A stretch of DNA of 64,000 bases from Rhodobacteraceae bacterium Alg238-R152 (GTDB taxonomy: Bacteria > Pseudomonadota > Alphaproteobacteria > Rhodobacterales > Rhodobacteraceae), in NCBI GenBank assembly GCA_900537125.1, contig UNRJ01000007.1:62001-126000 (forward strand). Direction: 5' to 3'. Made by a program: the position numbers and the translations under genes. The notes under the pieces are model-generated. The model was not told where the DNA came from. It saw only the letters and a list, made by a program, of their open reading frames with translations, and made no database searches. Shown here one piece after another: positions 57,362 to 63,916 of this stretch. Position 1 is the stretch's first letter; every line of letters starts with the position of its first letter.

Positions 57362-57979
57362 ATGGGTGAAACAGGTATTATGGGACCGGCATTGGCTGGG
57401 TTTGCCCTGGGGTTTTCGCTGATTATGGCGATTGGTGCGCAGAATGCCTTTGTGTTGCGGCAAGGGTTGCGTGGTGAATATGTGCTGCCACTCGTGCTGA
57501 CCTGCGCGGTCAGTGATGCAGCGTTGATAACGTTGGGCGTGGCGGGATTTGGCACGTTGATTGCCGCCAATGACTGGGTGTTGACCATTGTGCTCTATGC
57601 GGGGGCGGCGTTCTTGTTTGTTTATGGCGCGCTGAATTTCAAAACGGCGTTTGCCGGAGGTGGTAAGTTGGAAGACAAGGGGCGGACGGCGGGTAGCCTT
57701 GTGGCTGCGCTCACAACCTGCTTGTTGCTCACCTGGGCTAATCCGCATGTGTATTTGGACACCGTGATTTTGTTGGGCGGGATTTCGGCGCAATATGACC
57801 CATCTTGGGCCTTTGGGTTTGGAGCCGTGATTGCGAGTTTTGCGTTCTTCTTTAGTCTTGGATTTGGGGCCCAGCTTTTGCGTCCGATGTTCACCAGCCC
57901 TCGTGCATGGCAGGCTTTGGACGGTTTGGTTGGCTTGACCATGTGGGGGATTGCGCTCAGTTTGCTACTGAAAGTTTGA
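57362..57979 (+). CDS. argO: LysE/ArgO-family basic amino acid exporter
   Basis: A 205-residue membrane protein with about six segments. GFSLIMAIGAQNAFVLRQGL is the family signature near the N terminus, and LLLTWANPHVYLDTVILLGG contains the NPH motif of the second half. It exports arginine and/or lysine when they accumulate, under control of ArgP/LysG encoded divergently. The start at 57362 gives a short hydrophilic leader; ATG at 57380 is an alternative. The 100-bp gap to the unknown gene should hold the ArgP site. Confidence 0.88.
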   Translation: MGETGIMGPALAGFALGFSLIMAIGAQNAFVLRQGLRGEYVLPLVLTCAVSDAALITLGVAGFGTLIAANDWVLTIVLYAGAAFLFVYGALNFKTAFAGGGKLEDKGRTAGSLVAALTTCLLLTWANPHVYLDTVILLGGISAQYDPSWAFGFGAVIASFAFFFSLGFGAQLLRPMFTSPRAWQALDGLVGLTMWGIALSLLLKV

Positions 57980-57996
57980 TTAGCAAGAGGGCAATA

Positions 57997-58452
57997 ATGC
58001 GAAATAGACTATTGGCGGTGGTGGCAGCGGTGTTGATCCCTGCCGCTGCGTGGGCAGAGTGTTATCCCTTTGAGGCGCACGCTTCGATTGAGGAAAACCA
58101 ATGGTCGATCATCTGGCAGGATGATGAGCGATATGCGGTCAGTGAGATGTACCCGCTTGTGATGTTACCGCTTTTTATGCACGCCCCTGAGAAGCCGCAG
58201 CTCTTGTTTTTTGATCGCCCCATAAAAGATCGTCCCGATGTGGCGATGCTGCGCTATTATGCAGGCTCGCCTGGCACGTCTGTTCTGGTGCCAATTGTCG
58301 AGCAGGTGGTGTTTGACCTCGCGGATGCAGGCAAGGAGGTGTTGCGGGGGACGTATAGTGAAAACTGCGACCGTGCGGATTGGGAATGGGCGCAGGAAAC
58401 CGTTGCAGTGGACGATCCTGCAATGGGGTATCAAAAAGTGGCACTTCCGTGA
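57997..58452 (+). CDS. small secreted protein of unknown function
   Basis: A 151-residue protein with a signal peptide (MRNRLLAVVAAVLIPAAAWA, cleavage before ECYPFEAH). The mature protein of about 130 residues has two cysteines, one near each end (CYPF and ENCDRADW), which could form a disulfide. It is predicted to be mixed alpha-beta. It starts 18 bp after the exporter stop with AAGAGGG upstream, so it is probably cotranscribed with argO. No family was recognised. Confidence 0.75.
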   Translation: MRNRLLAVVAAVLIPAAAWAECYPFEAHASIEENQWSIIWQDDERYAVSEMYPLVMLPLFMHAPEKPQLLFFDRPIKDRPDVAMLRYYAGSPGTSVLVPIVEQVVFDLADAGKEVLRGTYSENCDRADWEWAQETVAVDDPAMGYQKVALP

Positions 58453-59556: not shown

Positions 59557-60462
59557 ATGACGGATGAAAGCTCTTCCTCACCACTAAAAGGCGTGTTCTG
59601 GATGCTGATCACGGGCTTGTGCTTTGTGGCGGTAACGGCGCTTGTGAAGATGGTGGGGACGCGACTGCCAGCGTCTGAGACAGCGTTTCTGCGCTATGCG
59701 CTGGGCATTGTGTTTTTGATCCCGATGATCCGGCCCATTCTTCGGGCCAACCTGACAAAACGGCAGGTGGGTTTGTTCACGCTTCGCGGTGTGTTGCACA
59801 CAGGTGCGGTGGTGGCCTGGTTTTTTGCCATGGCGCGAATCCCGATCGCCGAAGTGACGGCGATGAACTATCTGTCACCGGTTTACGTCACCATCGGCGC
59901 AGCGTTGTTCCTTGGCGAAAAGCTGGCGTTTCGGCGGATCGCGGCGGTGATTGTGGCCTTGGTGGGCGTGGCAATCATTTTGCGGCCGGGCTTTCGCGAG
60001 TTGAGTCCAGGGCATTTTGCGATGCTGTTTACCGCGCTAGGCTTTGCAGGTGGATACTTGATTGCCAAGCGGTTGAGCGAAGAGGTCAGCCCCACGGTGG
60101 TGGTGGGGATGTTGTCGGTCACGGTGACGATTGGGCTGGCGCCCTTGGCGTTTTCGGTGTGGGTCACGCCGACGTTGGAAGAGTTGGTGATCCTGTTTGG
60201 TGTGGCCTGTTTTGCCACCGCCGGGCACTACACGATGACCTTGGCGTTTAAGGCCGCGCCGGTGACGGTGACGCAGCCGGTGAGTTTCTTGCAAATGGTT
60301 TGGGCCGTGCTGCTGGGTTGGATTGGATTTGGTGAGCAGCCGGACGTTTGGGTGCTGGTTGGTGCGGCGATTATTATTAGCGCGATCAGTTTCATCACGT
60401 GGCGTGAGGCGATGCTGAAGCGGCGGCAGATCACGCCGCTTGAGGGGCAGACCAAGCTCTAA
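59557..60462 (+). CDS. DMT-superfamily (EamA) permease
   Basis: A 301-residue protein with ten predicted segments in two EamA halves. Motifs include TALVKMVGTRLPASETAFLR in the first and PVSFLQMVWAVLLGWIGFGE in the second. EVTAMNYLSPVYVTIGAALF is the usual conserved stretch at the end of the first half. Members export amino acids, nucleotides or other metabolites. The substrate is not predictable. It starts 72 bp after the pirin gene. Confidence 0.88.
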   Translation: MTDESSSSPLKGVFWMLITGLCFVAVTALVKMVGTRLPASETAFLRYALGIVFLIPMIRPILRANLTKRQVGLFTLRGVLHTGAVVAWFFAMARIPIAEVTAMNYLSPVYVTIGAALFLGEKLAFRRIAAVIVALVGVAIILRPGFRELSPGHFAMLFTALGFAGGYLIAKRLSEEVSPTVVVGMLSVTVTIGLAPLAFSVWVTPTLEELVILFGVACFATAGHYTMTLAFKAAPVTVTQPVSFLQMVWAVLLGWIGFGEQPDVWVLVGAAIIISAISFITWREAMLKRRQITPLEGQTKL

Positions 60463-60516
60463 GATTTGCGCGAAACGCGATTGTGCGCCTATCTTGCTGA
60501 AAAGCAGGAGGGAAAC

Positions 60517-61605
60517 ATGGCGGCTTTTCGGGGGATTTTGGCGGGTGTTGTGATGGTGGTGATAACACCATTGGCCGCGCAGGCAGGATTTGAGATCTGC
60601 AATGAAGCATCGTTTTCTCAAAGTGTGTCAGTGGCCTACAAAGATGGCGATGCCTATCGTTCGCGCGGGTGGTGGAACCTTGATCCCGGAGAGTGCAATA
60701 CGCCGGTGACCGGTGATTTGAAGCGGCGATACTACTACGTGTTTGCCACGGCGCAGGGGTATGAGTTTGATCCGGAAGAGCGCTATAGCTTTTGTACAGA
60801 ACTGGATGGGTTCTCGATTGTTGGGGATGCGGATTGCGCGGCGCGTGGCTATGACAAGTCGATGTTTGCAAAGATCGACACCGGCAAGACAGCAAAAGAC
60901 TATACACTGGCGATCAAGGCGGGGATTTTTACGGCGTTGGACACCGGGGCCTCGGGCGGTTCGTCAGCGACCCAACCAGCGGAGATTGTCTATACCACCG
61001 AGTCCGAGGCGCGGCGCATATTGCCGCTGTATATGCCGATGGAAAATTCGGGGTTCTTTGGTGAGCCGTTTTCGCAGGTGGGGATTTTTCAGGGCTGCAC
61101 CTTTGAGTATGAGGACGCGTATTGCAGCTTTCACGCGGAAGGGTGGAAGTATTACGTTAACTACGGCAATGGCACCGAGGACGCGTTGTTGGATGCCTTG
61201 GAGTTCCTGCCAGTGGGCACGCCAGTCGCCTTTGGCGGGGACATGATCAGTTATGGCGACATCACGGCGGATACAGTGATCCGCGAGGTGAGCTATTTTC
61301 CGGAGCTCGATCCATATCAGCACATCCGCGAAGCGATGATGGGGATGTGGCGCGATATGACGGATCCTACTGCGCAAATTTTGATTGAAGGTGCGGAGTG
61401 GACGGACTTGTACAACGGCGAGCCAGCGGCAACCTATTTTTTGCAGATCGCGTCAGTCTGTGATGCGGGGCCGGGCGGCCCGGTGTTGTTGCAGACCAAC
61501 CCGGAGGATCGCGAGCCCTATTGCTACATGATCGACAGTGTCACGGATGATGAAATGGTGCTCTATTACTACGGCAATCCACAGCCGTTCGTTTATCGGC
61601 GATGA
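60517..61605 (+). CDS. secreted DUF1036 protein with an extra C-terminal domain shared with the protein at 63260
   Basis: A 362-residue protein. A signal peptide (FRGILAGVVMVVITPLAAQA) precedes a DUF1036-like domain (about residues 25-140) with FEICNEASFSQSVSVAYKDG, RGWWNLDPGECNTPV and YYYVFATAQG. A Ser/Thr-rich linker leads to a second domain (about 182-362). That domain has four cysteines and motifs GCTFEYEDAYC, GWKYYVNY, ELDPYQHIREAMMGMWRDM and YCYMIDSVTDDEMV, which recur in the secreted protein at 63260. The ATG at 60517 has GGAGGG upstream. The second domain matches no family I recognise. Confidence 0.82.
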   Translation: MAAFRGILAGVVMVVITPLAAQAGFEICNEASFSQSVSVAYKDGDAYRSRGWWNLDPGECNTPVTGDLKRRYYYVFATAQGYEFDPEERYSFCTELDGFSIVGDADCAARGYDKSMFAKIDTGKTAKDYTLAIKAGIFTALDTGASGGSSATQPAEIVYTTESEARRILPLYMPMENSGFFGEPFSQVGIFQGCTFEYEDAYCSFHAEGWKYYVNYGNGTEDALLDALEFLPVGTPVAFGGDMISYGDITADTVIREVSYFPELDPYQHIREAMMGMWRDMTDPTAQILIEGAEWTDLYNGEPAATYFLQIASVCDAGPGGPVLLQTNPEDREPYCYMIDSVTDDEMVLYYYGNPQPFVYRR

Positions 61606-61678
61606 TTTGTCGCGAAACGTCTTGAGCGGAACGCCTAGCTCTCCATAGGGTGGGGCCAACGATCCAAGGAGTTCCGTC

Positions 61679-63187
61679 ATGTCCCGTCCCAACATCCTGA
61701 TTTTTATGGTGGATCAACTCAACGGTACATTGTTTCCGGATGGGCCGGCGGAGTGGTTACATGCACCCAACCTGAAAAAACTGGCGGCACGGTCGACGCG
61801 GTTTCAAAACGCGTATACTGCCAGTCCGCTTTGCGCGCCGGGGCGGGCGGCGTTTATGTCGGGGCAGTTGCCCAGCGGCACTGGGGTTTACGACAACGCG
61901 GCGGAGTTTGCCTCCTCCATTCCGACATATGCGCACCATTTGCGCCGGGCAGGATATCAAACTTGTCTGTCTGGCAAGATGCACTTTGTTGGGCCAGATC
62001 AGCTGCATGGTTTTGAGGAGCGGCTGACCACAGACATCTATCCGCCGGATTTTGGCTGGACGCCGGATTATCGCAAGCCCGGCGAGCGCATCGAGTGGTG
62101 GTATCACAACATGGGCAGCGTGACCGGCGCCGGCGTGGCAGAGATTTCCAATCAGATGGAGTATGACGACGAGGTTGCTTACCATGCTACGCGTAAGGTT
62201 TATGATCTGGCGCGCGCGCAGGATACGCGGCCTTGGTGTTTGACGGTCAGCTTTACGCATCCACATGATCCCTATGTGGCGCGCCAGAAATACTGGGATT
62301 TGTACGAGGACTGTGACCATCTTCTACCCGAAGTGGGGGCCATCCCCTATGAGGAGCAAGACGCGCATTCCAAGCGGATTTTTGATGCCAATGACTGGCG
62401 CAGTTTTGACATTACCAATGAAAACACTCGCCGCAGTCGCCGGGCCTATTTTGCCAACATCAGTTATTTGGATGACAAAATTGGTGAGGTGATGGAGGCG
62501 CTGGAGTCCACGCGACAAGAGGCTGTGATCCTGTTTGTCAGCGACCACGGTGATATGCTCGGCGAGCGCGGGTTGTGGTTCAAGATGAGCTTTTATGAGG
62601 GTTCCAGCCGGGTGCCAATGATGGTGGCCGCACCGTCGATGGAACCTGGGTTGGTGACCACACCGGTTAGCAACATCGATGTCTGTCCAACGCTCTGTGA
62701 GTTGGCGGGTGTGAGCATGGAAGAGGTCATGCCCTGGACTACAGGTGAGAGCCTGGTGCATTTGGGGCAGGGAGGAGAACGCGATACGCCGGTGATGATG
62801 GAATATGCCGCGGAGGCGACGTATGCGCCAATGGTGTCGCTGCGTTATGGCAAGTGGAAGTACAATCGCTGTGCACTCGACCCGGATCAGCTGTTTGACT
62901 TGGAGGCTGATCCACATGAGCTGATCAATTTGGTGGAGGAACCCGCGCATCAGGGCACTGTGCAGACGTTGCGGGCCAAATCGGAAGCACGCTGGGATCT
63001 GGCGGCGTTTGATGCCGCCGTGCGAGAAAGTCAGGCGCGGCGTTGGGTCGTCTATGAAGCGTTGCGTGTAGGTGGTTACTTCCCATGGGATTATCAGCCA
63101 CTGCAAAAGGCCTCTGAGCGCTACATGCGCAACCACATGGACCTGAACGAGGTGGAAGAACGCCAACGGTTTCCGCGTGGAGAATAA
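61679..63187 (+). CDS. betC: choline-sulfatase
   Basis: A 502-residue type I sulfatase. The formylglycine site is Cys52 in SPLCAPGRAAFMSGQ (C-x-P-x-R; the fourth position is Gly where Ser or Ala is usual). Metal ligands lie in MVDQLNG and VSDHGDMLGERGLWFKMSFY. The C-terminal choline-sulfatase extension (YEALRVGGYFPWDYQPLQKA, then SERYMRNHMDLNEVEERQRF) is diagnostic for BetC, which releases choline from choline O-sulfate for glycine betaine synthesis. There is no signal peptide, so it is cytoplasmic. No betA, betB, betI or choline transporter is in the window. It lies between two secreted proteins that share a domain. Confidence 0.93.
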   Translation: MSRPNILIFMVDQLNGTLFPDGPAEWLHAPNLKKLAARSTRFQNAYTASPLCAPGRAAFMSGQLPSGTGVYDNAAEFASSIPTYAHHLRRAGYQTCLSGKMHFVGPDQLHGFEERLTTDIYPPDFGWTPDYRKPGERIEWWYHNMGSVTGAGVAEISNQMEYDDEVAYHATRKVYDLARAQDTRPWCLTVSFTHPHDPYVARQKYWDLYEDCDHLLPEVGAIPYEEQDAHSKRIFDANDWRSFDITNENTRRSRRAYFANISYLDDKIGEVMEALESTRQEAVILFVSDHGDMLGERGLWFKMSFYEGSSRVPMMVAAPSMEPGLVTTPVSNIDVCPTLCELAGVSMEEVMPWTTGESLVHLGQGGERDTPVMMEYAAEATYAPMVSLRYGKWKYNRCALDPDQLFDLEADPHELINLVEEPAHQGTVQTLRAKSEARWDLAAFDAAVRESQARRWVVYEALRVGGYFPWDYQPLQKASERYMRNHMDLNEVEERQRFPRGE

Positions 63188-63259
63188 TGCGGCACACGCA
63201 ACAGTAGATTGTTAAGGCTTCTCGCCGTAGGCTGCGCGCAACGCGAAGGGGAGAGATCT

Positions 63260-63916
63260 ATGACTTTGAAATTGTTAAGTTTGGCGGCGGGTGTTGTGGC
63301 GTTGGGCGGTGCAGTACAGGCGCAGATGTTTATTGATAGCGGGACAAAAAGTGGCACTCGGGGAGAGCCAATTGAAGACGTCGCCATGCTGCACAGCTGT
63401 ATTTTTGAAACAGAGGTGCCGAGCTGTCAACTGACGAGCAACGGGTTCACCTATTACGTGAGCTGGAATGAGCCGACGCCAAGCTACATTGTCGAGGCGA
63501 TGGGTACGTTGCATGTAAACGCCCCCCTGTGGCTGCGGGCAGATATTGTGGAGATGGGGGACATGTCGGCGGAGCTGGCAGTGCATGCGTTCCGCCACGA
63601 TCCTTCTCTGGACCCATATGCCGAAATCCGCGCCAACCTGCAGGGCCAATGGGTGTTTGCCGCTGATCCTGCCTACACATCGAGCGTCTGGGGCGATCAG
63701 GTGACTGAGGAGGTCAATGGGGACTATTCGTCGGAGTACACGCTGCAATTGGCCGACAGCTGCGAGAAATCAAACGGGCAGGGGCCGGTGATGATTGCGC
63801 ATATCAACCCTTGGGATGAGCCCCCTTGCATGATTATTGAAGCGGTTACTGCCGACAAAATGATCATGCAGTTGGCCGGAGGGGACGGGACGCTGTACAA
63901 ATACGTGCGTCCGTAA
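63260..63916 (+). CDS. secreted protein of unknown function, paralogous to the C-terminal domain at 60517
   Basis: A 218-residue protein. A signal peptide (MTLKLLSLAAGVVALGGAVQ, then AQ) precedes one domain (about residues 35-218). It lines up with residues 182-362 of the protein at 60517: GEPIEDVAMLHSCIFETEVP against GEPFSQVGIFQGCTFEYEDA, SLDPYAEIRANLQGQW against ELDPYQHIREAMMGMW, CMIIEAVTADKM against CYMIDSVTDDEM. Four cysteines are shared. It lacks the DUF1036 part. The start follows AAGGGGAG. Function unknown; likely periplasmic. Confidence 0.8.
   Translation: MTLKLLSLAAGVVALGGAVQAQMFIDSGTKSGTRGEPIEDVAMLHSCIFETEVPSCQLTSNGFTYYVSWNEPTPSYIVEAMGTLHVNAPLWLRADIVEMGDMSAELAVHAFRHDPSLDPYAEIRANLQGQWVFAADPAYTSSVWGDQVTEEVNGDYSSEYTLQLADSCEKSNGQGPVMIAHINPWDEPPCMIIEAVTADKMIMQLAGGDGTLYKYVRP

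Follow-up and report, generated by a model that had tools for sequence, protein, structure and literature searches.

Choline, choline-O-sulfate and glycine betaine are osmolytes and nutrients of the sea, and the bet cluster is well studied. As in the marine Roseobacter clusters described in the accessible text of two accounts (PMC4744692, PMC12442346), betI, betC, betB and betA adjoin one another in the cluster considered here; the bet-cluster passages available in both make no mention of the proteins reported below. In one of them betC is found almost exclusively beside betI1, with Shimia litoralis as the exception (PMC12442346), which would fit a gene of the P0002 type, described here, sitting between betC and betI. 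The window, that is, the whole stretch of 64,000 nucleotides that we analysed, comes from Rhodobacteraceae bacterium Alg238-R152, whose near relatives are Shimia. Within it the choline-sulfatase gene betC is flanked on the same strand by the genes of two proteins, P0001 and P0002. They belong to a real, conserved and unnamed secreted family that occurs in a double neighbourhood, of bet genes and of arsenic (ars) genes. Our tentative reading, to which we give a probability of roughly 40%, is that both are members of one secreted family built from an OB-like and a GxW module, to which some members add DUF1036 at the N terminus, and that the family, which in the bet neighbourhood lies beside an EamA transporter gene, may supply a periplasmic accessory partner of the transporter or of its solute.

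The homology of the two proteins is clear. BLASTP aligned residues 177-353 of P0001 with residues 30-207 of P0002 (~180 residues, 34% identity, 111 bits, E 1e-33), while P0002, shuffled 1000 times, reached at best 24.6 bits against P0001. The sequence-only reading of this DNA had listed a set of motifs common to both, and these were borne out: GEP at residue 182 of P0001 and residue 35 of P0002, GWKYYV/GFTYYV, LDPYQHIR/LDPYAEIR, YFLQIA/YTLQLA and GPV. Its C-terminal motif is present as CYMIDSVTDDEM in P0001 and CMIIEAVTADKM in P0002, except that the methionine it gave is an isoleucine in P0002. The four cysteines lie at residues 194, 203, 315 and 336 of P0001 and at 47, 56, 168 and 190 of P0002, which has no further cysteine. 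In an alignment of 63 domains, many of them from close Shimia relatives, these cysteines are conserved in 62, 63, 63 and 63 rows. The same reading had the domain fused to DUF1036 in one copy, and residues 21-130 of P0001 do match PF06282. The parts of the two proteins are as follows.

60517..61605, + strand: P0001, 362 amino acids: by eye a signal peptide at about residues 1-23, followed by DUF1036, the OB-like module and the GxW module
60577..60906, + strand: DUF1036 domain, residues 21-130 of P0001 (PF06282, E 1.9e-30, score 106.2 bits, cut-off 23)
61051..61299, + strand: N module of P0001 with the first cysteine pair (profile match; OB-like by homology to P0002)
61300..61602, + strand: C module of P0001, of GxW type, with the second cysteine pair (profile matches)
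63260..63916, + strand: P0002, 218 amino acids: by eye a signal peptide at about residues 1-21, followed by the N module and the C module, without DUF1036
63353..63601, + strand: N module of P0002, OB-like (elements of the AlphaFold model; VIA Z-scores up to 7.9 with OB folds)
63602..63913, + strand: C module of P0002, with a helix, GxW and eight strands (AlphaFold elements; one VIA row spans the C module alone)

The sequence-only reading recognised the shared region in no named family, and the profile searches agree: no Pfam-A or NCBIfam model matches it in the window proteins, and no characterised family was found in either collection. When the shared regions of 44 relatives were compared with Pfam-A up to E 0.1, only two weak matches appeared, one member each, and 56 C modules gave only weak Pfam matches to one or two members. 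DUF5640, DUF5818, DUF7044, CYTH and DUF742 are among these weakly matched models, each hit by one or two relatives. PF06282 matched neither P0002, up to E 10, nor any of the 44 shared regions. PDB sequence searches with the family returned nothing meaningful.

The shared region had been taken for a single four-cysteine domain. On the predicted structure of P0002 and the architectures of its relatives it is two modules, an OB-like half and a GxW half of eight strands, because the model divides there and because the C module also occurs without the N module. AlphaFold, given mature P0002 and 13 alignment rows, yielded a best model with a predicted local distance difference test (pLDDT) score of 78.3 and a predicted template modelling score of 0.59, the five models spanning pLDDT 78.3 to 53.5. 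The first half is modelled in the β-β-β-α-β-β order of OB topology (in mature numbering strands 15-27, 34-39 and 42-47, helix 54-61, and strands 68-78 and 82-92), and the second as a helix followed by eight strands, from the helix at 100-106 to the strand at 191-196. VIA-align placed the first half on OB folds with Z up to 7.9. A single row covered the C module alone, that of potempin E (8ehc_B; Z 7.5, 81 aligned residues, 2.8 Å); Z values below 8 may reflect merely a common arrangement. The folds of the family are thus predicted, from P0002, to be of known types.

Each half of the shared region holds one cysteine pair. In several loci no N module was detected with the C module, which directly follows DUF1036 (L094, L095, L096), stands alone (L134, L093) or, in L098, is accompanied by DUF4087 and by a ricin-type lectin match that lies under its cut-off. 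Across the 56 aligned C modules just four residues never vary, the glycine and tryptophan of GxW and the two cysteines. As a separate observation, in five loci (L107:1850-3790, L121:1304-3070, L123:6660-8177, L126:6829-9003 and L127:2570-4579) the DUF1036 two-module gene is immediately preceded by one for a protein of three or four DUF1036 repeats; an EamA gene comes before that of the repeat protein in four of the five.

Both proteins had been called periplasmic. As to secretion, each starts with a hydrophobic stretch that ends, by eye, in AQA or VQA, and 57 of 72 family frames, the window's included, pass a crude rule for signal-peptide-like starts. Eight of the 15 that fail look signal-peptide-like by eye, and the other seven are fragments or carry the module far from the start. 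Export of P0001 and P0002 by Sec is likely on these sequence features. No signal peptide was seen in BetC; if BetC is cytoplasmic, the two secreted proteins cannot meet it.

The other parts of the locus lie around the two genes:

59557..60462, + strand: EamA-family (DMT) transporter gene (PF00892, E 8.6e-31), directly upstream of the DUF1036 gene
61606..61678, + strand: intergenic stretch from the DUF1036 gene to betC, conserved in part among six Shimia sequences including the window's
61679..63187, + strand: betC, choline-sulfatase, signal peptide not seen (TIGR03417, score 899.2 bits, cut-off 433.45)
63188..63259, + strand: intergenic stretch from betC to the P0002 gene, conserved in part among six Shimia sequences including the window's

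The order in the window is therefore EamA gene, P0001, betC and P0002, all on the + strand, and just past the window end follow betI on the opposite strand and then betB and betA on the + strand (locus L075). Locus L030 of Shimia sagamensis DSM 29734 is arranged in the same order. Partly conserved blocks, at 60460-60516, 61606-61678 and 63188-63259, stand upstream of the genes in six or seven Shimia sequences. From the sequence it looks as if the DUF1036 gene, betC and the P0002 gene each had a promoter of its own, and no operator common to the three was recognised by eye in the upstream alignments. Elsewhere in the window, an open frame of 181 amino acids (57907-58452) has a signal-peptide-like start from residue 31 and no Pfam match.

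To see how far this arrangement extends, the flanks of all 43 genomes that match the family profile were searched with the BetI, BetC, BetB, BetA and EamA proteins of the source genome. The fetched stretches vary in length, so that the counts of bet and EamA neighbours are lower bounds. A bet gene (betI, betC, betB or betA) lies within 6 kb of the family gene in at least 29 of the 43 genomes, the figure being 25 among the 36 that carry both modules; an EamA gene lies within 1.5 kb in at least 22 of the 43. Chance alone would put a bet gene so close in about 0.4% of cases (an estimate from 17 kb in 4.2 Mb), a figure to be read with the shared ancestry of the genomes in mind. Among the bet-side loci outside Shimia, the distance to a bet gene is at most 4 kb in 22 of 27 and that to an EamA gene at most 2.1 kb in 21 of 27, and the latter holds for all 15 Shimia bet-side loci. 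The fetched stretch includes betC in 16 of the 27 non-Shimia loci, and in 15 of the 16 the family gene stands upstream of it, on the same strand. The shorter forms with a C module (L134, L093, L097) occupy the same slot between EamA and the bet genes. Only the C-terminal part of a family gene was found in the EamA-betI slot of one Shimia genome (G023, L089:7781-8182), perhaps a decayed copy.

Fifteen loci with doubtful or distant bet assignments were re-examined. In 11 of them the BetI frame scores only 72-93 bits; eight of the 11 also hold BetA, BetB or BetC above threshold, and the others have a BetA fragment of 271 bits (L127), a BetB fragment of 185 bits (L092) or nothing more (L099). As a control we took 20 betC loci, the top-scoring ones from genomes without a family match (G581 and G394 were passed over); no DUF1036 or module gene was found in any of them. 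The presence of betC itself differs little, at 38 of 43 matching and 221 of 302 other genomes (E 1e-100 or better). The idea that the gene goes with choline-sulfatase in particular was rejected: eight fetched loci (L078-L082, L084, L126, L132) hold it beside betI with betB and/or betA, and lack betC. Of the link to choline-sulfatase in the sequence-only reading, the flanking of betC by both genes stands, and the association itself is better described as one with the bet cluster and its EamA transporter, and in a sister lineage with arsJ operons.

That sister lineage emerged from a quick tree of 60 rows, from which three divergent rows of the 63 (L092, L097, L099) had been dropped. One branch sets apart 11 rows that come from 10 loci, of which two are Shimia, with a Shimodaira-Hasegawa-like approximate likelihood ratio (SH-aLRT) support of 94; in FastTree its support is 0.989. 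Neither a bet gene nor an EamA gene was found in the fetched stretches of these 10 loci; for the bet gene, the split against the 27 non-Shimia loci of the bet side gives a Fisher p of 9e-6, not corrected for relatedness. Their neighbours include ArsJ-associated GAPDH (NF033735), ArsJ (NF033734), Acr3 and an ArsR-ArsC-like fusion. In seven of the 10 sister loci, and in two of three loci that combine DUF1036 with the C module, the family gene is flanked by gap on one side and arsJ on the other, on the same strand (L085, L086, L128, L105, L129, L112, L101, L095, L096), and L101 has two family genes in tandem in this position. Neither ArsJ-associated GAPDH nor arsJ was found in the 27 bet-side or the 20 control betC loci. 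In the source genome a GAPDH frame of 205 bits, lying over 11 kb away from the family gene, was taken as ordinary GAPDH. Both lineages have copies in two genomes, G364 and G636.

Within the source's own taxonomic family the profile of these proteins hits 43 of 345 genomes (42 of 344 genera). In class-wide samples of 289 genomes, four of them from that family, only two matched, both Shimia, and in an order-level sample 23 of 195 matched, all belonging to the family. The C module used alone as a profile matched 44 of the 345, namely the same 43 and the control genome G635, whose match is marginal (E 4.5e-4) and contains a stop. The form without DUF1036 occurs in 13 of the 25 genomes sampled in the genus of the source, itself included, and in a few other genera (L100, L099 and the divergent L092). 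Outside the family, a relative that matches P0001 in both its parts was found only on a plasmid of Maritalea myrionectae (Hyphomicrobiales; L163:11953-12960); it covers 94% of P0001, and its gene comes 163 bases after a universal-stress gene, itself preceded by the gene of a SulP-family inorganic anion transporter. A plasmid search with P0002 matched Maritalea only, and no match to the family was found in phages. Locus L035 was discarded as a false match, a sensor-kinase-like frame.

P0001 and P0002 had further been ascribed to a tandem duplication. They are homologous, and no third copy turned up in whole-genome searches of the source genome up to E 10. The Shimia bet-side DUF1036 form and the bare form each make up a clade of their own (SH-aLRT 99-100), and the two clades are not sisters in either tree, in which the deep forks are poorly resolved. 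Joining both Shimia forms into a single clade was not rejected by the approximately unbiased test (p 0.214), which leaves a tandem origin neither shown nor rejected. The pair is probably older than the sampled Shimia species, as judged from these trees.

How such a protein might act is suggested by what the two settings share, since both include an inner-membrane transporter of small solutes. After export by Sec, the two cysteine pairs would form disulfides, one within each module, and the protein would reside in the periplasm as an accessory partner of the adjoining transporter, EamA in bet loci and ArsJ in arsenic loci, or of its solute. There it might bind the solute or a breakdown product, or pass it on. 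A broader version, which we hold to be unlikely, would see in the family an unnamed class of periplasmic partners that combine DUF1036, OB-like and GxW parts in varying sets and were attached separately to EamA (choline/betaine), ArsJ (arsenate) and perhaps SulP (sulfate), each binding the transported solute or oxyanion at the outer face, which would complete export or exchange.

Several points weigh against a transporter partnership. In 14 of the 43 genomes the fetched stretch contains no bet gene, although one genome counted among them (G529) has betC about 4 kb away by a separate search. An EamA gene was present in 14 of the 20 control stretches, all without a family gene, so EamA may belong to bet and not to the family protein. 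Most relatives in the taxonomic family lack the gene, which is therefore dispensable. Three of the 10 sister loci (L106, L102, L104) and one of the three loci with DUF1036 plus C module (L094) have neither bet nor ars genes, and no common theme was seen among their scanned neighbours. With only the glycine, the tryptophan and the two cysteines of the C module invariant, no catalytic or ligand site is evident. The C-module model is weak at residues 141-170 (pLDDT 51-58), and the AlphaFold model of P0001, built from six near-identical rows, reached a pLDDT of only 36.

The main rival is a general envelope-stress protein that would steady the periplasm or the outer surface under stress, share its regulation with osmoprotection and arsenate defence, and make no contact with a transporter. 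Bet and ars operons both serve stress, and short DUF1036-only genes on plasmids keep company that would suit such a role: in seven records (L195-L201), picked from the best 20 of 30 matches, a Tss (type VI) gene is near in six, ExbB/ExbD in five and a peptidoglycan-type peptidase in four. A general stress protein, however, need not hold specific slots, and such slots are kept, between gap and arsJ in all nine ars-linked loci and close to EamA in most non-Shimia bet-side loci, as counted above; we regard this rival as somewhat unlikely. Mere hitch-hiking, a single ancestral placement of the gene next to bet that vertical descent has preserved with no shared function, draws on the fact that all members found but one belong to a single taxonomic family, their relatedness making the loci non-independent. 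Against it, the close neighbours persist across genera whose copies are only 18-31% identical to P0002, and even the shorter C-module forms keep the EamA-bet slot, which makes it a distinctly unlikely account.

We give still less credence to a periplasmic binder of tetrahedral oxyanions, which would take sulfate released from choline-O-sulfate or present at SulP, and arsenate or its phosphoglycerate ester at ArsJ. The settings beside betC, in gap-arsJ operons and near SulP on the Maritalea plasmid would suit it, but the eight bet loci that have the gene and lack betC would not; the Maritalea case is one record, and no conserved basic site was identified. Potempins of Tannerella are small inhibitors that use either OB folds or eight-stranded barrels, and the sole fold row over the C module alone belongs to potempin E. 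A Z below 8 may again indicate just a common arrangement, and no peptidase occurs among the annotated neighbours in the source genome (EamA, betC, betI, betB, betA), those elsewhere being annotated in part, so that a barrel protein of this inhibitor type is very improbable here. The preferred reading remains that of an accessory partner of transporter or solute. It is of interest for a secreted protein beside bet to be kept across many genera and yet have no Pfam or NCBIfam model. The bet and gap-arsJ settings offer two separate and easily testable contexts, both for the family and for DUF1036, and raise the question of what the movement of osmolytes or arsenate requires outside the inner membrane of these cells.

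A literature search that took in work on bet, arsJ and DUF1036, with subscription papers mostly outside its reach, found no account of the family gene. The available text of a salt-resistance paper that names betC draws no link to the protein (PMC4602150). DUF1036 is nearly absent from the literature covered, its single mention among 5.39 million papers being in an interactome of a citrus pathogen.

Compared with described families, P0001 agrees with DUF1036 (PF06282) in being secreted and in having cysteines. The DUF1036 match does not extend over the shared region, P0002 does without the domain, and Pfam lists its function as unknown. The N module resembles OB folds (e.g. 4gla_C, 3k0y) in its predicted β-β-β-α-β-β topology, the fold being common and uninformative on function, and no sequence relation to them was found. 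The GxW motif at the first strand marks lipocalins, and lipocalin or calycin-type barrels are like the C module in having GxW ahead of eight predicted strands, often with R or K at the end; the family differs from them by its size of ~100 residues and by a cysteine pair. Judged by model name alone, none of the weak Pfam matches of the 56 members is a lipocalin or calycin, and the same set gave no PDB sequence match up to E 10. Adjacency to the gene of a target peptidase, as for potempins, is not seen in the source genome. The closest parallel on the arsenic side is the gap-arsJ arsenate operon of Vibrio, in which, according to the text accessible to us, the slot held here by the sister gene is taken by varH, a putative phosphatase gene (PMC9601151). 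In the operons described here, unlike that of Vibrio with varH, this slot holds the gene of a secreted DUF1036 protein.

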